Made by a program: the position numbers and the translations under genes
Shown: positions 154 to 25,392 of the stretch, piece by piece
How positions within the stretch are numbered: position 1 is the first letter of the stretch
Layout: each line of letters begins with the position of its first letter
Notes under the pieces: model-generated
The model's input: only the letters and a program-made list of their open reading frames with translations
Database searches by the model: none
Told to the model about the DNA's origin: nothing
Source: a virus
DNA length: 26,659 nt
Reading direction: 5' to 3' (one strand)
IMG/VR virus record: IMGVR_UViG_3300006790_000097
Location: 1-26,659 of that record

Positions 154-822
154 GTGGCTAATTTTCCTGACGCTATCGATTTAATTAAAAAATATGAGGC
201 GTTTAATGAAAAAGCCTACGCAGATCCAATCACTGGGGGCTACCCATACACTATTGGGTACGGCTCCCAGTTTTATCCTGATGGCTCAGAGGTAAAACAA
301 GGGCAGCGTTGTAGTAGAAAGAAAGCTCTTGAATACCTCCTCCACGAGATAGAAGTCATTAACGATCAGCTTGATTCCCTAGAGCTTCCCATCGATTCAT
401 CGATGCGACAAGCATTGATTTCTTTCATCCACTCCGTTGGATGGAATGGTTTTTTATACTCCAGCATCATTGATGCTTTAGAAACAGGGGACTATAGGTA
501 CACCATTGACCAAATCAATCAATGGATCTTTGATGAAAACCACAAAATTATTGGTGGCCTGATTGAACGCAGACGAGAAGAAACAAAGCTTTTCCTCCAG
601 GAAACCAAAGAATTTGAAGAACCTTCCGTCAGTGTCCTACTCAAAGCATTCACTGCTTATTGCGGCACAGAAATTCAAATGAAAGCAATCAGAACCCTGG
701 AAGACCAAATGAGCCCTTATACGTTGTCAGAGTTTATCAATAACTATCGACTTTCGGACGAAGAATTTTGGTTGGATTACCCCTGGGAAGATGCGGACGA
801 AGAGTTTAACTTCAGGGTTTAG
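154..822 (+). CDS. T4-type lysozyme (GH24 muramidase)
   Basis: The 222-aa product carries the GH24 phage lysozyme domain in residues 1-150. The T4 catalytic triad E11/D20/T26 maps onto E15, D24 and T33, the last within a YTIGYG motif. The family GL-x-x-RR signature is at about 134-140. The enzyme cleaves the MurNAc-GlcNAc bond of host peptidoglycan during lysis. Residues about 151-222 form an acidic C-terminal extension not found in T4 lysozyme (164 aa), of unknown role. There is no signal peptide, so it would need a holin or another route to reach the wall. The start is GTG at 154: the next in-frame candidates lie inside the catalytic domain. A hairpin abuts this start, suggesting translational control. 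A second, unrelated lysin is encoded at 12541-13569. Confidence 0.88.
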   Translation: MANFPDAIDLIKKYEAFNEKAYADPITGGYPYTIGYGSQFYPDGSEVKQGQRCSRKKALEYLLHEIEVINDQLDSLELPIDSSMRQALISFIHSVGWNGFLYSSIIDALETGDYRYTIDQINQWIFDENHKIIGGLIERRREETKLFLQETKEFEEPSVSVLLKAFTAYCGTEIQMKAIRTLEDQMSPYTLSEFINNYRLSDEEFWLDYPWEDADEEFNFRV

Positions 823-847: not shown

Positions 848-1144
848 ATGATGGAAGGATCTATAGAACCTACCTCTTTTGAGCTTCCTCTTGAACTGCA
901 ATTCGCAATGCGGAAAGCAGAAATTCAAGCAGAAGAGATGACATGGGAACAACTCCACGATGCGTTGCTCAACCTCTACCATCAACGATTAATGGAATGG
1001 CACGCTGTACGTGCCATCATGTCAGACGAAAATATTCAAATCGACTTTGATCTTCCTACTGAAGTAGAGCTGATGGAACTTGCCGTTAGCTGCATGGCAG
1101 AAGAAGACGAAGAAGATGACGACGAAGGATTCCAGCCGTTTTGA
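848..1144 (+). CDS. NblA-like phycobilisome degradation protein
   Basis: The 98-aa product (ATG 848, or 851 since two Met codons are adjacent) has a core at residues 11-58 that aligns without gaps to NblA/Ycf18: an E-L-x-L-E-x-Q-F start, Arg at 22, Gln at 27, Met at 31, Gln at 35, then the L-L-x-L-Y-x-Q helix at 40-46. NblA is a small helical adaptor that directs cyanobacterial phycobilisomes to Clp protease; freshwater cyanophages such as Ma-LMM01 and PaV-LD carry nblA. This protein is longer than host NblA (about 55-65 aa), with a second helical stretch at 60-83 and a very acidic tail of Glu/Asp at 85-93. An upstream in-frame start at 791 overlaps the lysozyme gene and encodes no family sequence, so 848 is preferred. 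Homology is judged by eye. Confidence 0.62.
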   Translation: MMEGSIEPTSFELPLELQFAMRKAEIQAEEMTWEQLHDALLNLYHQRLMEWHAVRAIMSDENIQIDFDLPTEVELMELAVSCMAEEDEEDDDEGFQPF

Positions 1145-1150
1145 TTGAAA

Positions 1151-1468
1151 ATGTTGTCGACTGAATACCGTAAGAGACTTGAGTTCATTTGCTCACGTAT
1201 CGCAGCAAAAGAAGAAGTCAAGCTCTCAGATATGATCTGGGCTGAAAAGTTAGCTAAAGCTAACCGGTCAGCTGCAGAAATCATGCGTCGTGCCAGGCGT
1301 TTATCTCGTAATCCAGAAATGAAAGCCGATAGCTTAGACGGCTTTATGAATGCAATGGACCTGGGAGACCCAGACCCACAAAATCACCGCACTGGTTTTA
1401 AGAGTGCAGATGACATTGTGGAATGGTTTAGCCAAGAACGTACTGATGACTGGCGGCAGCGAGACTAA
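1151..1468 (+). CDS. Hypothetical helical protein
   Basis: The 105-aa product starts at ATG 1151; an in-frame TTG at 1145 touches the stop codon of the NblA-like gene and is a weaker choice. The N-terminal two thirds is basic and helix-prone, with a WAEKLAKANR stretch and an Arg-rich segment near 40-50. The C-terminal third is acidic and ends DWRQRD. It looks like a family of short cyanophage proteins of unknown function, but I cannot name it. It is probably cotranscribed with the NblA-like gene, and its stop codon interlocks with that of the convergent DUF3310 gene. Confidence 0.6.
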   Translation: MLSTEYRKRLEFICSRIAAKEEVKLSDMIWAEKLAKANRSAAEIMRRARRLSRNPEMKADSLDGFMNAMDLGDPDPQNHRTGFKSADDIVEWFSQERTDDWRQRD

Positions 1469-1782
1469 CCCAGTTCAACTAAAAGGTTCAGATACCACTG
1501 AGCTTTCTTTAGAGACTCAATACCCCCTTTCTGCTTTTCTCTCCAAATATATTTGGCGCAATTTGCTTTTAGGAAGCCTCTATATTCTTCTCTGGTTAAT
1601 TGCGCTTCGATGGCTTCAATGCACTCAATATCTCCGGCAGTGTAGTGCGAAGGATGGTTGACATTATCAGTTGGCTCATTGCCACTGGTATCTGCCATCA
1701 CCGTATCAATTGCTTTTGTTGCCCAGGGCACAGGACAAACGCCCCCTGGACAATCACTAATCTCTATTTCGTTATCCGTCAC
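1465..1782 (-). CDS. DUF3310 protein (T7 gp1.7-like, possible nucleotide kinase)
   Basis: Residues 41-103 of this 105-aa protein match the DUF3310 domain: a VNHPSHYT opening, a central I-E-x-I-E segment, then C-x-K-Y-I-W-R and a K-A-x-W-Y-L helix. DUF3310 is the domain of T7 gp1.7, a dGMP/dTMP kinase, so a role in nucleotide supply is plausible but not shown. I set the start at GTG 1782 because it overlaps the stop of the upstream gene as GTGA, a normal translational-coupling arrangement. The frame remains open upstream to 1983, but that part lies wholly inside the other gene and is low-complexity. The N-terminal 40 residues are not part of the domain. The 3' end overlaps the convergent gene by 4 bp. 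Confidence 0.72.
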   Translation of the reverse strand: MTDNEIEISDCPGGVCPVPWATKAIDTVMADTSGNEPTDNVNHPSHYTAGDIECIEAIEAQLTREEYRGFLKANCAKYIWREKQKGGIESLKKAQWYLNLLVELG

Positions 1783-2132
1783 CGGATCAAACCACGACGT
1801 TTCTTCGAGTCTTCGATCATTTCTTTTGTCGGCGTCCCCTGAAGATCCAACACCAGCGCCTTCGGTTGAGGAGCAGCTCCCATTACAAGGCCCTCCTCCA
1901 TCGACGGAATGTAACCCGTCAATCCGATCCTCTGTTGATTGCCCTCCAGCGCAAGATTTTTCCTTTCGAGTCCCTGCTCGCATGCCGCTAAACCACGATT
2001 GTATTGATCATACAGCGGAACATCGTTCTCTTCATTGCCTAAAGGTTGACCAAAATCTTCTTCTTCATCCAGGCAACGACAAAGGATTTCGTCCTGTACA
2101 AAACTATCTAAAAAACCAGCGGCATCTAACAT
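1779..2132 (-). CDS. Hypothetical protein, first gene of the DUF3310 pair
   Basis: The 117-aa product starts at ATG 2132 and ends at TGA 1781-1779, overlapping the GTG of the DUF3310 gene. It is acidic at the N-terminus, including a run of Asp/Glu near residues 20-27, and basic at the end. No domain is recognised. The coupled arrangement supports a real gene; the antisense frame at 1658-2134 is a shadow. Confidence 0.55.
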   Translation of the reverse strand: MLDAAGFLDSFVQDEILCRCLDEEEDFGQPLGNEENDVPLYDQYNRGLAACEQGLERKNLALEGNQQRIGLTGYIPSMEEGLVMGAAPQPKALVLDLQGTPTKEMIEDSKKRRGLIR

Positions 2133-2189: not shown

Positions 2190-2552
2190 ATGGCGTTAAA
2201 TATAGATCCAACACAACGGCGTGGTACCTCAGGCTCAGAAGGTTCTGACCTACGGCCTGGCTATCGTTACGACGTTGATCTCAGACGCCTCAGCGAAGAA
2301 GAACGCGATATCGTTGAAAGCTCCAATGCCAAACAAGACGCCATTGATCGGCGTGTTAAATCAGCAAAAGCAGCTGGTAAATATAAGAAAAATAAGTTAA
2401 TTAGTCAGCCCACAATTAATGGCAAGACTCCCCGAACTCCTGGTTCTATTAATGGTGTCACCCTCCCCAGCATGGGCGAAGCATTTGGACCTGTCGGTTC
2501 GACTAACTACGCCGACAAGCCCAAACCTTTTACTGGTGAAGTGTTCTACTAA
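2190..2552 (+). CDS. Hypothetical basic protein
   Basis: The 120-aa product is rich in Lys, Arg, Gly, Pro and Ser. Residues 1-70 are charged and helical in part, and residues 75-120 are Pro/Gly/Thr-rich and probably unfolded. It ends in a GEVFY tail. There are no recognised motifs. It stands alone on the plus strand between two minus-strand units, and its stop codon interlocks with that of the dCTP deaminase gene (CTAA at 2549-2552). It may be a small virion protein, but this is a guess from composition only. Confidence 0.6.
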   Translation: MALNIDPTQRRGTSGSEGSDLRPGYRYDVDLRRLSEEERDIVESSNAKQDAIDRRVKSAKAAGKYKKNKLISQPTINGKTPRTPGSINGVTLPSMGEAFGPVGSTNYADKPKPFTGEVFY

Positions 2553-3136
2553 ACAGTAGGCAGCACAACCTTCGCAGGTTGGTCTTGATACTTACCTTTT
2601 CTGTCCTGGTAGCTCACGGCACAAGTTTCACCGGTATAGAACAAGAGCTGCGTGATACCCTCATTCGCATAGATTCGGTTAAACAGTCCGGTACAGTTAC
2701 TAATTTCCAGCGTCAAGTAACCTTCCCAGCCAGCTTCCGCTGGAGTAATGTTCACCATGATTCCCGAACGAGCGTAAGTTGATTTACCAACTGCCACAAC
2801 GGTGACGTTGTTAGGTAAAACCAAACGTTCTAATGCCACACCAAGGCAATATCCATAGGGAGGCAGCAGAAAGTACTGGCCATTCTCGTCTTCCTGTAGT
2901 TCTAATGACTTCAGGATTTCAGAGTCAAAACTTTTGGGATCACAATCACCTCGTTGGGTACCACCAAAAAGAAGGCACTGTTCAGGCGATAAACGAATGT
3001 CGTATCCGTAAGAGCCAAGCCCATAGCTCAAAATCTTTTTGTCATCTACTTTGTTGACAAGATGCTCGCTAAAAGGAGCAATCATTTCTTTGTGACGCGA
3101 AAGATTTGCGATCTCCCAATCAGCGAGAATGCCCAT
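2549..3136 (-). CDS. dcd: dCTP deaminase
   Basis: The 195-aa product matches the trimeric dCTP deaminase/dUTPase superfamily. The active-site block G-K-S-T-Y-A-R spans 117-123, giving S119 and R123 equivalent to E. coli Ser111 and Arg115. The general base Glu138 maps to E144 in a LTLE motif. An earlier SYGYDIRL block (42-49) matches the conserved substrate-binding strand. The enzyme converts dCTP to dUTP and so feeds dUMP/dTTP synthesis. ATG 3136 is preferred over an adjacent in-frame TTG at 3139. It is the last gene of the 5036-2549 operon, 33 bp after the Dam-like gene. DUF3310 nearby points to a nucleotide-metabolism cluster. No dUTPase or thymidylate synthase is visible here. Confidence 0.9.
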   Translation of the reverse strand: MGILADWEIANLSRHKEMIAPFSEHLVNKVDDKKILSYGLGSYGYDIRLSPEQCLLFGGTQRGDCDPKSFDSEILKSLELQEDENGQYFLLPPYGYCLGVALERLVLPNNVTVVAVGKSTYARSGIMVNITPAEAGWEGYLTLEISNCTGLFNRIYANEGITQLLFYTGETCAVSYQDRKGKYQDQPAKVVLPTV

Positions 3137-3169
3137 CAATATTGCTCAGTTGTTCTCCAATATACCTAA

Positions 3170-5466: not shown

Positions 5467-7425
5467 GTGGCTAACAGAAAAATTACACAGATGCCTTCCA
5501 TTAACGGAACGGACATCGTTGATAATGATTTACTAACTTTAGTCAAAGTTTTTGAGGTTGACCCCAGCCTTAAAAATAAAAGACTTACCTTCTCCGGTCT
5601 TCGCGACTACCTAGATCAATATTATGGAATTGCAATCCTTAGTGGCGACCTTACTCTTTCAGGTTCGCTAACGGTTACTGGTGATCTCCGTGTCAGTGGA
5701 GACTCACATTTTGTATCCGGTCATTTTACCGACAGTGTCGTTATTGATGACAACCTCAATGTTGGAGGAGAGATTTCTGCGATTGGCACAATCTCCGGAA
5801 ACAACATCAATGGCACCAACGCCAACTTAACGAATGTAATTGTCGACAATATTAGTGGTCAGTCTGCCACGTTTACAACTGGCACATTTACCACCGGGAC
5901 TATTGATAACCTTAGTTCTACGTTTATAACCGGCAACACAATTAATGGAACAGTTGGTACCTACGCATACGTTACAGGAACTGTTCACGTTTCAGGAACT
6001 ACCGTCTATGGCGTCACCGGTGAATTTACTCAATTAAATATTTCTGGTATTGATGTTGGCGATATTGAAGTTAATGACCTCACCGTCAGCGGCGTAATCT
6101 CTGGAGAAACCATCACTGGTAATGTCATTTCAGGTACCAGTGGCGTCTTCCAATATTTATCTGGCAATACAGTTACTGGCGATGACGTTAACGTCACCAC
6201 AATCACCGGAGTAACGGGAGTCTTTACTAATTTCTCCGGACAAACAATTACCGGTGATCTGATCAATGCAACTGAAATTAATGTCCAAACTTTAAACGCT
6301 GCCAATATTGAATTCTCTGGTGACAATACCATTTCAGGTGACTTAAACGTTACTGAAACAGGCATCTTTGGCAGTGGCATTCGAGTTACGGGCTCAACTG
6401 ACTTAGAAGATCTCTTTGTCAGTGGCGATGCAACTGTAACTGGCAACACAACTACTTCTGGTTTATTTGTCACTGATGTTGCAACGTTTGCCTCAGGTAC
6501 AGAAGCAGCTCCTTCTATCACCTTCACAGGTAACGCAGACACTGGATTCTGGAAGCCAGCCTCAGGAATGATTGCTGCCAGCACCTCAGGTGTTGAAAGT
6601 TTCCGTATTAATCAATTCCGTAATATTGGTTTAAGTCTTAACAATCCACTAGACAACCTCCACGCATCTGGAAACATCCGCACCAATCAACGTTTTATTG
6701 GTAGCGGAATAACTCTTTCACATGATGCAATTATCAGTGGAGACTTAACTGTTGAAGGCCAAGTCAATGCATCTGGTGTTGATTTCGATAATCTTGAGTT
6801 AAGCGGAGACCTTACCGTCACAGGTGATCTTGGAGTCTCTGGCAACACAACCCTGAGCGGTCTGATAGTTGAGAATAACGCAACAATCAGCGGCGATCTT
6901 GGAGTCTCTGGTACAACAACTACCAGTGGTTTATTAGTTACCGATGGCGCAACTATTAGTGGCGACACCAATATTTCAGGTTTGCTTACTGTTAGCAGTC
7001 TGACAGTAACTGGCAATCTGAACATTAGTGGTGACATTATCTCAAGCGGAAACGATAATTTTGAAAATATCTTTGTTTCCGGTAATGCGACAATTACAGG
7101 AGACTTAAACGTTACTGGCACTACGACGCTCTCAGGTAACTTAAATGCTCACAATTTACACGTCACTAATGATGCTTTTATTGGTGATGACCTGACTGTT
7201 ACAGGAGACATAATTACCAGCGGTGAAGTTGGAGCCGAAGCTCTTATTTCCAGAACAAGTGGAGATATCCGTGGTGATCTTGCTGTAAGTGGTGAGTTAA
7301 CAGCAGACACTATTACTGTTCTTGAAACAGGTGTTGCTTTTGAAATGTCAGGCATTGCATCTGGCGTCAACCCAACTTACAATGGCTTCGTAATTCAAGG
7401 GCCACTAGTGATCCTTCCCCAATGA
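5467..7425 (+). CDS. Repeat-rich tail fibre protein
   Basis: The 652-aa product starts with GTG 5467. Its first 55 residues are non-repetitive and probably anchor the fibre to the virion. Almost everything after that is a degenerate repeat of short beta strands, each ending in SG or TG followed by D, N or T (patterns such as L-T-V-S-G-D and T-T-S-G-L). This is the composition of trimeric beta-helical phage fibres and adhesins. A distinct module at about 342-385 (S-G-T-x-A-A-P … T-G-F-W … S-T-S-G) interrupts the repeats and recurs in the product of 9798-10847. Gly, Ser, Thr, Asn and Val dominate; Cys is essentially absent. It lies 32 bp downstream of the membrane-anchored protein gene and 40 bp before a paralogue. 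Confidence 0.75.
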   Translation: MANRKITQMPSINGTDIVDNDLLTLVKVFEVDPSLKNKRLTFSGLRDYLDQYYGIAILSGDLTLSGSLTVTGDLRVSGDSHFVSGHFTDSVVIDDNLNVGGEISAIGTISGNNINGTNANLTNVIVDNISGQSATFTTGTFTTGTIDNLSSTFITGNTINGTVGTYAYVTGTVHVSGTTVYGVTGEFTQLNISGIDVGDIEVNDLTVSGVISGETITGNVISGTSGVFQYLSGNTVTGDDVNVTTITGVTGVFTNFSGQTITGDLINATEINVQTLNAANIEFSGDNTISGDLNVTETGIFGSGIRVTGSTDLEDLFVSGDATVTGNTTTSGLFVTDVATFASGTEAAPSITFTGNADTGFWKPASGMIAASTSGVESFRINQFRNIGLSLNNPLDNLHASGNIRTNQRFIGSGITLSHDAIISGDLTVEGQVNASGVDFDNLELSGDLTVTGDLGVSGNTTLSGLIVENNATISGDLGVSGTTTTSGLLVTDGATISGDTNISGLLTVSSLTVTGNLNISGDIISSGNDNFENIFVSGNATITGDLNVTGTTTLSGNLNAHNLHVTNDAFIGDDLTVTGDIITSGEVGAEALISRTSGDIRGDLAVSGELTADTITVLETGVAFEMSGIASGVNPTYNGFVIQGPLVILPQ

Positions 7426-7431
7426 TAAATA
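7425..7431 (+). promoter_or_regulatory. Candidate late-type -10 element (GATAAATA)
   Basis: GATAAATA ends 34 bp before the ATG at 7466 and overlaps the stop of the previous fibre gene. It differs from the T4 late box by one base. The match is of low specificity. Confidence 0.25.
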
Positions 7432-7465
7432 GGGCTTAGAATACTTAAAAATCCGTAGTAGATAG

Positions 7466-8632
7466 ATGCCAAAGCAGTATGGAATTGTAAAAATTGACTA
7501 CATCACCTACACCACTGGTGCAAGTGGCGTTGAAGCTGATCACACAATTGATGTATCTGGCTTAGCTGGCATTGCTGCTAGCGGCATCACAGTTACTGGA
7601 ACAATCTCTGGCGTATCAGGTATTTTTGCTAGTGGCATCCAAGTTGATGGCAGTGGCGTTTTTCAACATCTATACGTCAGTGGCAATACAATCCTTAGTG
7701 GTGATGTCACGGCCTCAGGAAACCTTGGAGTTTCGGGTCAATTAACTGCCAGTGGCATCACGTCAACTGATGATATTACCGCTAGTGGTGATTTAAATGT
7801 ATCTGGATTAGGTACACTTAGCGGACTCCTAGTTACTGGTGACGCAACGATTGGTAATGACCTGACAGTTAGTGGAGATTTAAATGTCTCTGGAGACATC
7901 TCACTTTCAGACAGCATTACCGTTAGTGGAATCACAGTTACTGGTGATGCAACTGTCAGTGGTGATCTCGAAGTTTCTGGTGGAATTACCGCTAGTGGTC
8001 TTGAAGTTACAGGAAATGCCACTATTGGTGATGACTTAACTGTCAGCGGTAACCTAAGCGTTTCAGGAAATACAACACTCAGTGGTTTAACAGTCACAGG
8101 TGATGCCACGATTGGTGATGATCTAACTGTTAGTGGAAACTTAGGCGTTTCAGGAGCTACAACACTCAATGGCTTAACAGTTACTGGTAATTCCACGATG
8201 AGTGGTACCCTAGAGGTCAGCGGAACATTCACCGCTAGTGGTGCCGCTAATATCTCAGGTGAATTAACTGCCAGCAGTCTTCATGTCACCGGCTTAATCA
8301 GTGGTGATACTGATGGTGGTGTTTATGGCTCTGGTTATTGGAAAGTCCCTGCTGGTACATCAGCTGAACGACCTGGGGCTGGAAGTGAAGTTACCGGAAT
8401 GATCCGATATAACGAAACACTTACACAATTTGAAGGCTGGGACGGCACCTGGTCAATCTTAGGAGGTGGTGCAACAGGTTCTGGCGGTGACCGTGTATTC
8501 GTCTTGAATGAAACTGGCGTCACGACTAATTACACACTGACTGGCTTCAATGCTTCCAGTGCTGGCCCAATTACAATTGAAGATGGAATTGATGTTATCA
8601 TCGCCGATGACTTCAACTGGGCGATTGTTTAA
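7466..8632 (+). CDS. Repeat-rich tail fibre protein, paralogue of the preceding gene
   Basis: The 388-aa product repeats the V-S-G/V-T-G strand pattern of the upstream gene from about residue 35 to 285. Two adjacent 29-residue units encoded at 8012-8098 and 8099-8185 are nearly identical, pointing to recent duplication. The C-terminal part (about 289-340) changes to a compact module with A-G-T-S-A-E-R-P, G-M-I-R-Y-N and F-E-G-W-D-G-T-W motifs. That module is common at the ends of phage fibres and probably caps the shaft. The last 45 residues are unrelated and end FNWAIV. The gene likely encodes a shaft or side-fibre subunit acting with the 652-aa protein. Confidence 0.75.
   Translation: MPKQYGIVKIDYITYTTGASGVEADHTIDVSGLAGIAASGITVTGTISGVSGIFASGIQVDGSGVFQHLYVSGNTILSGDVTASGNLGVSGQLTASGITSTDDITASGDLNVSGLGTLSGLLVTGDATIGNDLTVSGDLNVSGDISLSDSITVSGITVTGDATVSGDLEVSGGITASGLEVTGNATIGDDLTVSGNLSVSGNTTLSGLTVTGDATIGDDLTVSGNLGVSGATTLNGLTVTGNSTMSGTLEVSGTFTASGAANISGELTASSLHVTGLISGDTDGGVYGSGYWKVPAGTSAERPGAGSEVTGMIRYNETLTQFEGWDGTWSILGGGATGSGGDRVFVLNETGVTTNYTLTGFNASSAGPITIEDGIDVIIADDFNWAIV
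8012..8185 (+). repeat. Tandem duplication of an 87-nt fibre-shaft unit
   Basis: Two head-to-tail 87-nt units (8012-8098, 8099-8185) encode 29-residue repeats that differ at only a few residues (for example NLSVSG versus NLGVSG). Most nucleotide differences are silent, so the protein sequence is being kept while codons drift. A weaker earlier copy starts near 7835. Confidence 0.7.
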
Positions 8633-16073: not shown

Positions 16074-17087
16074 TTACTCGTCTTCGTGGTAATCAGGAAG
16101 TTCTTCAGGTACCTCCAGTGGATGTTCTATTGTTCTTTTATAACGTCCTAAAGCAAGGTCAAGAGGCGAGACGTAGAAACTCTGCAGTAATTTCTTGGGA
16201 TCTCGCTCGACACAAAGAGGTTCGATATTACGTGGATACGAGAATCTATTGAACTTAGCTTCCAGGTGTAGAGGATTCATGCAATTCGGGTCGTCGCAAA
16301 AAGGAGTCACCCGTAACTTGCCAACATCACCCCAAGCCAGGTGATAGATCAACTTGCGTACAGAAACATTGTCAGTCAACTTATCAGCAGTGGATCGATA
16401 GGACGGCGCTACTAAGCGATCCCTGCTTCCTTGCCAATACCAGTGCTCATCTGGACCATTGACTTCTAGTTGACGAAACAGATTTCTAGCAGCATGGTTG
16501 TAATTGATATAGATGAAATTCACATCAATACCGCAGCGGTTCTCTTTGATCTTCTTGACGCACTCAAGGCAGTAATGCGACTCCTTGTGTCTCAAGCTTC
16601 TCGGAGTAAGACTGTCTTTGTCGATGTGGTGCTCAGGATATGGACACGGTGCACCAAGATAGAAATTTTCCTTCATCTCCTCAGGAGAAAACGGGGATGC
16701 TTTCTCTGAAGCCTTCCTTTTCTTAGCTCGACCAACACGCCTGGTCCTGGAACCCACAGGAATTGCATTGGGGGCTGAGTCAGCAGACAACAAGTAAAGC
16801 TCTTTCCTGTTGTCTTTTTCGGCATTGTCGGCACCATGCACGACATCCGCATCACCTGGATTCTCTTCTGTCCTCAGGAAATACACCAAGCGATGACAGG
16901 TGTAAGCCTCGCCTAAAAGGTTGAGGCGATAAACATCTTGAGCCCTGTATCGCTTGCCTGCCTGCTCCCCATTCTTGCGACCGTTGCCGTTGTACGCCCA
17001 CTCAAGACCACTGGGGTACTCGTCACTCAACCGAAGGAACTGACGCAACGTCCTGAGAGAAGGCAAGTCGTGCTTGTAACGAGCCAT
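16074..17087 (-). CDS. HNH endonuclease-like protein with two HNH-type modules
   Basis: The 337-aa product has two HNH-like segments. The first, residues 30-100, matches phage HNH endonucleases: a Gly-rich opening, H65-R66 before a helix, and V-V-H-G … D-N-R (82-94) for the usual D-H-I-N-G-D … D-N-R. The second, about 240-276, has the R-K-L-I-Y-H-L-A-W-G helix then C-D-D-P-N-C-M-N-P-L-H-L, retaining N271 and H274 but lacking the usual first His before the Cys. Between them a C-x2-C pair (C173, C176) may bind zinc, and residues 118-130 are Lys/Arg-rich. Free-standing HNH proteins in phages are often homing endonucleases. The region upstream (17088-17480) has repeats and a late-type promoter box. 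Confidence 0.65.
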   Translation of the reverse strand: MARYKHDLPSLRTLRQFLRLSDEYPSGLEWAYNGNGRKNGEQAGKRYRAQDVYRLNLLGEAYTCHRLVYFLRTEENPGDADVVHGADNAEKDNRKELYLLSADSAPNAIPVGSRTRRVGRAKKRKASEKASPFSPEEMKENFYLGAPCPYPEHHIDKDSLTPRSLRHKESHYCLECVKKIKENRCGIDVNFIYINYNHAARNLFRQLEVNGPDEHWYWQGSRDRLVAPSYRSTADKLTDNVSVRKLIYHLAWGDVGKLRVTPFCDDPNCMNPLHLEAKFNRFSYPRNIEPLCVERDPKKLLQSFYVSPLDLALGRYKRTIEHPLEVPEELPDYHEDE

Positions 17088-21757: not shown

Positions 21758-21976
21758 TTAATCCGACTGTCTATACGCTTCCATTAACTCATCTTCAGTC
21801 TCATAAGACTTATGATGTTTTGCCGTTAGACGCATTGCTTTGCCTTCTTCCCTATAGATGGGCTCAAAATCTTCGTTGAGATCCCAGTAGTAATCTCTGG
21901 TGTTGTCCCATTCGATACGCTTGAGACGCGCCTTGGTTTTGGATTCAAACCAGAGAGTTTTAAGCCACTTGATCAC
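21758..21976 (-). CDS. Small hypothetical acidic/helical protein, start uncertain
   Basis: The frame ends at 21758. I choose GTG 21976 (72 aa, 17-bp overlap with the endonuclease VII gene). ATG 22036 would give 92 aa but places the first 20 residues wholly inside the nuclease gene. Tyr, Trp, Glu and Lys rich; no recognised domain. The start is only weakly supported by a Shine-Dalgarno. Confidence 0.45.
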   Translation of the reverse strand: MIKWLKTLWFESKTKARLKRIEWDNTRDYYWDLNEDFEPIYREEGKAMRLTAKHHKSYETEDELMEAYRQSD

Positions 21977-22412
21977 AGCCTGAGCGATGTCGCTCAAGAT
22001 ATTTTTTGGCAGCGTCGAAGAGAAGTGGATCCTCATTTAATAGTCCTATCGCAGAATTGCATTTGCCACAAAGTAATTGGCGCACTTTCCCACTGCTGTG
22101 GCAGTGGTCAACGTGAAGCCTTGAGTCAGTTACTTCTATTCCTTTGCAAATAGCGCAAAGATTGTTTTGCTCTCTCAACATTCTTTCATAATCTTTAAAA
22201 GAAATGCCGTATCGATATTTTAAATTGGCACGCCATTGAAGTTCTTTTGTTCGTTCGGGGTTATTTTTGAACCATTTTTTAGTATTAGCATGACGACAAC
22301 TCTTGCACCATGAAGTGTGACCTTCTGGCCTTTGGGCATCCTTGTGAAATTGATCCCAGCTCTTGAAAGTTTTACACTTAGAACAGGCTCTAGGGGATAA
22401 GGTCTGGGTCAT
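21960..22412 (-). CDS. Recombination endonuclease VII homologue with extra zinc finger
   Basis: The 150-aa product (from ATG 22412, preceded by GGAG three bases upstream) contains the endonuclease VII core in residues 65-142. Zinc cysteines pair as C86-x2-C89 and C115-x2-C118; D102-H103 and N119 match T4 D40-H41 and N62, the catalytic metal site. N-terminal C10-x2-C13 and C36-x2-C39 add a second zinc-binding module absent from T4 gp49. T4 endonuclease VII resolves branched DNA such as Holliday junctions before packaging. An in-frame TTG at 22430 would add six residues. It overlaps the upstream exonuclease gene by 23 bp and continues into the replication operon. A second homologue is at 23902-24228. 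Confidence 0.88.
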   Translation of the reverse strand: MTQTLSPRACSKCKTFKSWDQFHKDAQRPEGHTSWCKSCRHANTKKWFKNNPERTKELQWRANLKYRYGISFKDYERMLREQNNLCAICKGIEVTDSRLHVDHCHSSGKVRQLLCGKCNSAIGLLNEDPLLFDAAKKYLERHRSGCDQVA

Positions 22413-23205
22413 ATTCTCCGAGTTCTTCAACTTGTTTATAATATGCGGCCACGATCTTCAGCCAGTCTTCGTGGAGCATGTCTAGGAAGCGTCTACTGAT
22501 TTTAAAAATTTGAGTGCGAACAGGAGTTGACACGAGGATGGCAGCCTGTTGCACCTTCATGCCTAGGGTTTGTTGAATCCCAAGATCGTAAGCAGCAAGT
22601 TGCTTGCAGGTTTTTTTGAACTTGAGGTGTCCGCCCAAAAGATCTCTCCACTCTTGGGATCCCTTTTCCAAATGGGACGGCCAGCGTCTGGCATACGGTT
22701 TGACGGAAGTCTTGAGGTCCGCCAACGTGAGTTTCCCATTGGCGACGGCGATAATATCGGGCGCCCCGGCCCAAGCTCTTCCTTCTGAATCACTGCCCCA
22801 TACACGAGCAACATCGTCGCTGCCAAGAGTGAATTTAAATTTGTCCAAAACAGGAGATTCTGCCCATAGTACTTCTTCGAATTGGTCGAGCACCTGGGGC
22901 ATTCCCTGCCAGAACTCTGCGTATTCTGCTGGGATCTTAGGCTCTTTATCTCCTTTGAGATAACACTCCATGCCATAGTGAATGGCGGTACCACGTTCAG
23001 CTGCCTTTTCTTTAACACCTGGGTTTGCCTTAGACCACATTTCTAGTTTTTTCTTGTTCGCTTCTGAAGCAGTCTGCGACAAGATAGTAGTGACTGACGG
23101 CGCTGGGCCAGTTTCTAGCGGAGTTGTGTAGTGACGTTTACCGTTAAGCGTAATTCGAGCTGCAGTCTTATTGATTTCCTGCATCAACTCAGGATTATCT
23201 GGCAT
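22390..23205 (-). CDS. PD-(D/E)XK exonuclease (Cas4/AddB-like fold)
   Basis: The 271-aa product has the motif order of PD-(D/E)XK phage exonucleases: R-G-T-A-I-H at 71-76 (motif I His), E116, G-A-P-D with D150, L-A-D-L-K-T with D163 and K165, and Q202-L-x-x-Y (motif QxxxY). This matches Cas4/RecB-type nucleases and the exonucleases of phages. It probably degrades 5' or 3' ends for recombination or host DNA breakdown. It heads the minus-strand replication operon 23205-17615. ATG 23205 begins the frame and there is no nearby better start. No CRISPR array is in the window, so a Cas4 role is not suggested. Confidence 0.85.
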   Translation of the reverse strand: MPDNPELMQEINKTAARITLNGKRHYTTPLETGPAPSVTTILSQTASEANKKKLEMWSKANPGVKEKAAERGTAIHYGMECYLKGDKEPKIPAEYAEFWQGMPQVLDQFEEVLWAESPVLDKFKFTLGSDDVARVWGSDSEGRAWAGAPDIIAVANGKLTLADLKTSVKPYARRWPSHLEKGSQEWRDLLGGHLKFKKTCKQLAAYDLGIQQTLGMKVQQAAILVSTPVRTQIFKISRRFLDMLHEDWLKIVAAYYKQVEELGEYDPDLIP

Positions 23206-23901: not shown

Positions 23902-24228
23902 GTGGCTTCAAGAGAGGCAAACTTAAAGCATCGATATGGCATTACGTTAGTTGACTACAACGAAATGCTTTTAGAACAGAACTGTCGATGCAAAATTTGT
24001 GACGTAGAAAGCAGTGACCTGGTGGTAGACCACTGCCACAAATCAGGTGATGTCCGTGGTTTGTTATGTAATAACTGCAATCGAGGACTTGGAATGTTTA
24101 AGGATAGTCCTGAGAGAATGGAGAGAGCAGCTCAATATATTATTGAAACCAAAAACGAAGAGGCTCTATCCTTATCGTCCCCCACTATTTCTGGAGGACA
24201 TGCAGAAAGTAAATCAGCAACCGCGTAA
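23902..24228 (+). CDS. Second endonuclease VII-like nuclease
   Basis: The 108-aa product starts at GTG 23902 with AAAGG at 23886-23890. Its core at residues 8-80 matches endonuclease VII: C30-x2-C33, D43-H44, C56-x2-C59 and N60, the same layout as the 150-aa homologue on the minus strand. It lacks that protein's N-terminal zinc module. Residues 85-108 are Ser/Ala-rich and differ completely. All metal-site residues are present, so it may be active. Its tail overlaps the convergent Dps-like gene by 15 bp. It is an independent copy rather than a direct duplicate, as overall identity is modest. Confidence 0.82.
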   Translation: MASREANLKHRYGITLVDYNEMLLEQNCRCKICDVESSDLVVDHCHKSGDVRGLLCNNCNRGLGMFKDSPERMERAAQYIIETKNEEALSLSSPTISGGHAESKSATA

Positions 24229-24753
24229 CATCGCTTTGATTTGCCAAGCAGATTTAAAAGATTCACCAACTAATTCAGCACAGTAGTTTTCAACATCAGG
24301 TGCTTTGATCTTTTTAGCCACTTCACCTACACGCTTGGCATCCATGCCATAGGTTTCTAGGTTTTTGTAATAAGTGATGAGCATCGCAGGACCTTCGTAG
24401 GCTTTGACATGCTCAAGTTTTTTATTTGCCTTCAGCAGTCCCTGTTCACACATTGGAAGAAGGAAATCGAGAGAACGAACGAGTTCACCCACACTATCAA
24501 GTTCTTCTTGGTGCTTTTGATATTGTTTCTTGGTGAACTTGTGTACCGCAAGGAACTCTGGACCTTCGAAGTTCAGATGTATCAAGTGCGATTGCAACAT
24601 CAAGTGAGCAGCTTGGCTCGTCAAGTTGATCAATTCATTAGCAAGTCGAGCTACGGGTTCACGCTTACTCTGGGGTTGGGGCTCATTGCTTACGGGTTCT
24701 GGCTCCCGTTGCGCAGTGGGTTCCGTTGGCTGAGGAGGAGTCCCTGCGAACAT
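24214..24753 (-). CDS. Dps-like ferritin (DNA-protection mini-ferritin)
   Basis: The 179-aa product has a Pro/Glu/Gln-rich, likely disordered tail (1-35) and a four-helix bundle (about 36-179). The ferroxidase residues of E. coli Dps (H51, H63, D78, E82) fit with identical spacing: H59, H71, D86 and E90, in a block reading H-L-N-F-E-G-P-E-F before the second His. Dps proteins form dodecamers that oxidise and store iron and shield DNA from peroxide. The C-terminal third (A-P-D-V-E-N-Y-C-A-E) is helical. It lies alone on the minus strand between the endonuclease VII paralogue and a coiled-coil gene, with its start at ATG 24753. Function in the infection is inferred only. Confidence 0.65.
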   Translation of the reverse strand: MFAGTPPQPTEPTAQREPEPVSNEPQPQSKREPVARLANELINLTSQAAHLMLQSHLIHLNFEGPEFLAVHKFTKKQYQKHQEELDSVGELVRSLDFLLPMCEQGLLKANKKLEHVKAYEGPAMLITYYKNLETYGMDAKRVGEVAKKIKAPDVENYCAELVGESFKSAWQIKAMLRGC

Positions 24754-24813: not shown

Positions 24814-25392
24814 ATGAACATCTTCGAGTATTTAGACGCAGAATCACCTGAGATCAATCATGCATTAGCTCATGGTTTTAGGAAAGGAGATAGCAGTGCA
24901 GTAGGTCGTGCTTTATTAGAAGAAATTAGAGCAAGAAAAACCCTGGTTAAACAGTTAGCTACTCAGGTAAGAGCTGTTGAAGCAGTTGATAGGCAAACAA
25001 TTGACACAAGTGGATTGCAAGCCAACATTGATCAACAAGGGGAAACTCTTAATCAACAAAGAGAAACTCTTAGTCAGCAAGGAGAAACTCTTAGTCAGCA
25101 AGGAGAAACTCTTAGTCAGCAAGGAGAAACTCTTAGTCAGCAAGGAGAAACTCTTAGTCAGCAAATAGAAACTCTTAGTCAGCAAGGGGAAACTCTTAGT
25201 CAGCAACAAGAAAGCATTAATGAACAGCTGGAATTAATTAACCTTCAACAAGAATTAATTGATCAACAACAAGAAGAAAGCTCTAATCAACTATTAAAGA
25301 TTGGAGAACTGGAACAGGATGTAGCAGATGCAAACAGTAGAATTGATGTATTAATTTCTGGATTAACAAGTTTATTACAGCGGTTAGAATAA
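24814..25392 (+). CDS. Coiled-coil protein with 21-bp tandem repeats
   Basis: The 192-aa product starts at ATG 24814. Residues 1-60 form an N-terminal domain with helices; 76-131 are eight 7-residue repeats of x-E-T-L-x-Q-Q, a near-perfect heptad; 132-155 continue as a degenerate Gln/Glu-rich coil, and 160-192 are a helix with Leu/Val. This would be a parallel coiled-coil stalk, perhaps trimeric. It lies directly before another fibre gene. Likely a tail-fibre or fibre-accessory protein; no domain identifies it. Confidence 0.65.
   Translation: MNIFEYLDAESPEINHALAHGFRKGDSSAVGRALLEEIRARKTLVKQLATQVRAVEAVDRQTIDTSGLQANIDQQGETLNQQRETLSQQGETLSQQGETLSQQGETLSQQGETLSQQIETLSQQGETLSQQQESINEQLELINLQQELIDQQQEESSNQLLKIGELEQDVADANSRIDVLISGLTSLLQRLE
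25039..25206 (+). repeat. Eight 21-bp tandem repeats inside the coiled-coil gene
   Basis: The unit reads GGAGAAACTCTTAGTCAGCA plus A, eight in-frame copies with a few substitutions (first two copies have AATCAA or AGAGAA; the seventh begins ATAGAA). Copies 3-6 are identical or nearly so at the DNA level. Since 21 is a multiple of three, gain or loss of a unit would change stalk length without a frameshift. Confidence 0.9.

Follow-up and report, generated by a model that had tools for sequence, protein, structure and literature searches.

A divergent NblA-like protein with an acidic Pro-Phe tail, probably a Clp adaptor, in cyanophages related to S-EIV1

The analysed record is a virus contig of the IMG/VR type of 26,659 bases (the window) and represents a fragment of an S-EIV1-related phage. 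The genes and features found around the NblA-like gene are shown in Table 1. The ORF at 848-1144 (+) translates into 98 aa, and ATG 851 is the likelier start (97 aa) because the relatives open with MEGSIEP or MERSVEP. An alternative in-frame start at 791 was rejected, as it overlaps with the lysozyme gene and has no backing from relatives. Searches of PHROGs and NCBIfam with the NblA-like protein produced no convincing match. A promoter scan around the gene gave fewer matches than were obtained in shuffles, and the scan was therefore uninformative on its expression. The phrog_507 gene, for which ATG 1151 would be preferred over TTG 1145, starts a few bases after the NblA-like stop codon, at a place where no such gene is annotated in S-EIV1.

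Table 1 Positions of the NblA-like gene, its segments and its neighbours in the window
Feature	Position	Strand	Evidence or remark
Phage lysozyme, directly upstream of the NblA-like gene	154..822	+	PF00959, E 1.7e-20
NblA-like gene	851..1144	+	97 aa from ATG 851, 98 aa from ATG 848; start common to relatives
NblA core, predicted two-helix hairpin	881..1021	+	PF04485 match, AlphaFold2 core model
N-terminal ClpC-type motif LPLELQF	884..904	+	Counterpart of host LSLEQQF
Family-specific extension, holding most of the predicted third helix	1022..1099	+	Conserved in all members
Acidic run EEDEEDDDE	1100..1126	+	Sequence; acidic in all members, length variable
C-terminal tip FQPF, SSB C-terminal tip-like	1130..1141	+	Pro-Phe end conserved in relatives
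phrog_507 gene, function unassigned	1151..1468	+	E 1.5e-48; in close relatives
DUF3310 protein, lineage neighbour	1465..1983	-	Also in S-EIV1
dCTP deaminase, lineage marker	2549..3139	-	Used to test constancy of the NblA-like gene

Other features were observed elsewhere in the window. Two large ORFs rich in VSGDLTVSG-like repeats (5467-8632) are probably tail-fibre or appendage proteins, and an ORF with tandem ETLSQQG heptads (24814-25392), whose repeats open other frames too, likely forms a coiled coil. This one 26-kb fragment holds two endonuclease VII-like genes that belong to the same families, at 21960-22430 (-) and 23902-24228 (+), together with an HNH-type ORF at 16074-17087 (-). The product of 24214-24753 (-) showed a weak Dps/ferritin-like match (phrog_3636, "DNA binding protein"), and the C-terminus of the S-EIV1 "DNA-binding ferritin-like protein" is similar to it.

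Among isolates, Synechococcus phage S-EIV1 from a high Arctic lake is the nearest, and its Synechococcus host agrees with the link to a phycobilisome-bearing host that the preliminary description of this DNA had drawn. The S-EIV1 orthologue (AHV82245.1, 55.6% identity) is annotated as "hypothetical protein". No close relative came up when 21 kb of the window were compared with phages by Megablast. The gene order common to the window and S-EIV1 comprises lysozyme, NblA-like gene, DUF3310 protein and dCTP deaminase, with a glycosyltransferase and a primase further on.

The constancy of the NblA-like gene was tested by scanning IMG/VR with the dCTP deaminase, so that the search was independent of NblA. 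Among the best 80 of 458 deaminase matches, a sample biased to close relatives, the NblA-like gene was present in every testable locus (77/77), and the other 3 loci ended too early. Its start was located 993-1735 bases from the deaminase and always on the opposite strand in the 77 loci, and the lysozyme was found next to it in 73 of them. The more distant contigs L035-L045 also carried the gene. The dN/dS of the core was 0.016-0.041 in pairs without saturated synonymous sites, and purifying selection on the gene is strong. Within the S-EIV1 lineage, it looks to be part of the core gene set. In one close contig (L006, 3180-3395), a frameshift cuts the NblA-like reading frame short at 71 aa, which reflects either a sequencing error or a broken copy.

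The gap-free alignment of the core to NblA and the greater length of the protein, both pointed out in the preliminary description, were borne out. Residues 12-58 matched positions 1-47 of PF04485 without gaps (E 6.7e-6, 26.9 bits against a Pfam gathering cut-off of 25 bits), which is nearly the whole stretch (residues 11-58) that had been proposed for such a profile search, and in the PF04485 search of the whole record the protein scored 28.2 bits (E 8.4e-8). The S-EIV1 homologue and some other relatives scored under the Pfam cut-off. Reciprocal profile tests were performed because one marginal Pfam match is weak evidence. A phage profile made from alignment A2, with 20 phage members and no host NblA, matched 33 of 292 cyanobacterial genomes at E <= 0.01. 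Nearly all of these matches were short, recognisable NblA ORFs (best E 6.7e-6), and they span the core and not the extension. Against the PDB, the top match of the phage profile was Anabaena NblA 1ojh (E 9.8e-4). In the other direction, a host profile of 31 host NblA sequences was searched against 2,608 ORFs that came from S-EIV1, from the window and from eight related contigs. The top ranks were taken by the ten NblA-like genes, with no other significant match, and E values were 6.3e-9 for the window, 3.5e-6 for S-EIV1 and 1.3e-3 for the weakest member.

The host profile was drawn from the phage-profile matches, so the two search directions are not fully independent; the Pfam PF04485 model is independent of both profiles. 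Alignment of the phage and host NblA alignments in hhalign paired 54 columns (P 7e-10), and the NblA-like protein scored 34.5 bits with the host profile against 14.4 bits for the best of 20,000 shuffles. On these profile comparisons, homology of the phage protein to NblA is taken as established. Core identity to cyanobacterial NblA is at most about 37%, and the core tree set the phage family on a long branch of its own (support 100), apart from every host NblA and from the NblA of other phages. The host donor of the gene cannot be named from this tree because it is built on about 50 columns.

AlphaFold2 without templates predicted the core alone as a two-helix hairpin (pLDDT 91; helices 7-22 and 25-52), which is the fold anticipated from the first reading of the sequence. 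In the full protein a third helix was predicted at residues 72-88 (98-aa numbering), followed by a low-confidence tail from residue 89. This third-helix extension is conserved in all members and is lacking in host, MaMV-DC and PaV-LD NblA. Foldseek and VIA-align searches of the PDB with the full model and the core did not list NblA chains, the 55-residue hairpin being too small to inform, and Foldseek of this small core against viral models gave no informative match.

The C-terminal phycobiliprotein motif of NblA comprises Leu51 and Lys53, followed by His-x-Trp-Gly, and Bienert et al. in 2006 reportedly found that Leu51 and Lys53 matter. In NblA a motif near the N terminus binds ClpC and one near the C terminus binds phycobiliproteins (PMC4103541), and the solved protein is a dimer forming a four-helix bundle (PMC7966870). 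The N-terminal motif L-P-L-E/Q/H-x-Q-F/L was present in all distinct members of the phage family (57/57). Near the end of helix 2, the position equivalent to Leu51 was hydrophobic in all members, the position equivalent to Anabaena Lys53 was basic in none (0/57), and the Trp-Gly is replaced. Judged from the alignments, the family diverges most at the end of the molecule that is reported to contact phycobilisomes. The NblA of PaV-LD is reported to be active, its expression causing phycobilin loss (PMC5780444), and sequence comparison showed that it likewise lacks Trp-Gly, yet keeps the basic residue. The lost C-terminal motif was for this reason not taken as defining for NblA, and its loss lowers, but does not exclude, the phycobilisome activity to be expected of the phage family. 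The reading of the protein as NblA given in the preliminary description thus stands for the homology, seen in both search directions, and for the ClpC-type motif, and is weakened by the loss of the phycobiliprotein-type basic residue and Trp-Gly.

The protein does not end in a run of Asp/Glu as first described. The acidic run occupies residues 85-93 and is followed by G-F-Q-P-F; the acidic stretch itself was seen correctly, while the conserved extra helix, the Pro-Phe tip and the core-gene status in the lineage had been missed. A Pro-Phe end after an acidic run was found in 74 of the 77 contigs recovered via the deaminase, with tips that are mostly L-Q-P-F, F-Q-P-F or Y-Q-P-F. When all searches were pooled, Pro-Phe was terminal in 61 of 71 distinct C-termini and not in the other 10, and one branch of the family does not have it. 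Constant last residues behind an acidic stretch of variable length and sequence point to a short binding motif at the C-terminus.

The C-terminal tip of SSB is the best-known motif of this type. In E. coli it reads DFDDDIPF (PMC10164576). Among the 128 CDSs checked of 129 in S-EIV1, only the SSB and the NblA-like protein end in Pro-Phe, and the SSB ends in Pro-Phe in 8 of the 9 lineage phages where an SSB was found. Clean covariation of the two tips was looked for and not found, as Pro-Phe is absent from both proteins in G298 and is kept by the SSB and not by the NblA-like protein in G316. From its sequence the tail tip resembles the SSB C-terminal tip, a likeness that carries no claim of membership in that class and serves as a lead and not as proof.

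The explanation that accounts best for these results, and is considered probable, is a divergent NblA-type Clp adaptor whose gene is part of the core set of S-EIV1-like cyanophages. This explanation is based on the PF04485 match, the reciprocal profiles, the hairpin model, the invariant N-terminal motif, the lineage-wide presence and the low dN/dS. By inference, the hairpin core, probably dimeric, would dock on host ClpC via the retained L-P-L-E-x-Q-F motif, and during infection the adaptor would bring phycobilisome proteins to the Clp protease, or would loosen them by mimicry, with amino acids freed and light input lowered as the outcome. Action on phycobilisomes is likely because of the homology to NblA and the reported activity of other phage NblA proteins, which cause phycobilin loss on expression (PMC9602691). 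A further contact is probably provided by the additional helix together with the acidic Pro-Phe tail, as a binding surface that would replace or supplement the lost C-terminal phycobilisome motif. Counted against the Clp adaptor are the missing basic residue and Trp-Gly, the members that fall under the Pfam cut-off, and a length half as long again as that of known NblA.

The same losses at the phycobilisome-binding end, next to a ClpC-type motif that is kept, would also suit an adaptor that retains the ClpC contact and has no action on phycobilisomes, its helix and SSB-like tip recruiting other host or phage proteins; proteins that dock on the SSB tip might be delivered to Clp, or there might be competition with SSB. 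The acidic Pro-Phe tail end in 74/77 contigs, the Pro-Phe end of the SSB of the same phages (8/9) and the restriction of such ends to these two proteins in S-EIV1 speak for this explanation, against which stand the branch without terminal Pro-Phe, a tip spacing one residue longer than in SSB (DDDIPF), the imperfect pairing of the two tips (G316) and a partner of the tail that is putative. It was judged unlikely, and its specific form, in which a mimic of the SSB C-terminal tip retargets the Clp adaptor to DNA repair or replication proteins and either delivers them to Clp or competes for them, was judged quite unlikely. An NblA fold with an unrelated job, as a small scaffold, or as a decoy or inhibitor directed at host NblA or ClpC (e.g. 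through mixed dimers) that would preserve the antenna, also appears unlikely. A dominant-negative NblA would look just so, with the phycobilisome-type residues lost and the ClpC-type motif intact, and other cyanobacterial phages carry genes that maintain photosynthesis (PMC5332604), but phycobilin loss is what the phage NblA proteins assayed to date promote (PMC9602691), and conservation of the extension and tail speaks for an additional function and not for a simple truncation.

Chance resemblance, in which a helical, acidic protein unrelated to NblA gives a coincidental Pfam match, would explain a single-sequence match barely over the cut-off and several relatives under it. The reciprocal profile matches fall in the same register, however, and with the host profile, the profile-profile P-value of hhalign and the control of 20,000 shuffles this very improbable explanation was discarded. 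A tail assembly chaperone was dropped as well, the match being weak and limited to one member.

NblA is already known in a number of cyanophages, and in the S-EIV1 lineage, which the title of its discoverers' paper reportedly calls widespread, a relative behaves like a fixed core gene. The S-EIV1 orthologue appears to have been overlooked so far and is listed as hypothetical. If the whole lineage carries the gene, control of the antenna or of Clp is probably central to infection and more than a dispensable extra. Both the third helix and the Pro-Phe tail are conserved, and they offer a handle on whether a proteolysis adaptor gains new targets in phages.

Phage nblA has been described in Ma-LMM01, MaMV-DC, PaV-LD, an uncultured marine phage, S-TIM5, S-SCSM1 and cyanopodoviruses (PMC9602691). 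Table 2 of PMC5332604 gives no nblA for the S-EIV1 group, and no mention of nblA in S-EIV1 was found in the literature covered, which included neither Nadel et al. 2019 nor the paper that first described S-EIV1. Several Nodularia phages, including KU230356.1 (99350-99526; locus L163, 1480-1656), encode a 58-aa "hypothetical protein" with an NblA match of 22.2 bits (<25), which is possibly another unannotated phage NblA, without the extension.

Compared with cyanobacterial NblA (PF04485; Anabaena 1ojh, 65 aa), the phage protein has the gap-free core, the N-terminal L-x-L-E-x-Q-F, the L-x-x-L-Y-x-Q of helix 2 and a predicted helix-loop-helix, and differs in about 35 more residues, which hold the third helix and the acidic Pro-Phe tail, with no basic residue at the Lys53 position and no Trp-Gly. 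The Microcystis phages Ma-LMM01 and MaMV-DC and the Planktothrix phage PaV-LD likewise encode a PF04485 NblA, whereas these Microcystis and Planktothrix phage proteins (65 and 54 aa) are without extension or acidic tail, retain the basic residue at the Lys53 position and lie separately in the core tree. In most members the phage tail resembles the SSB C-terminal tip in an acidic stretch that leads to a hydrophobic residue and a Pro-Phe whose carboxylate is free; the tail sits on an NblA core and not on an OB-fold, and its tip has one extra residue between the hydrophobic residue and the Pro. S-EIV1 AHV82245.1 has the same neighbours, the extension and the acidic Pro-Phe tail, and differs in a longer tail with a basic patch (DDLRKELAPF).
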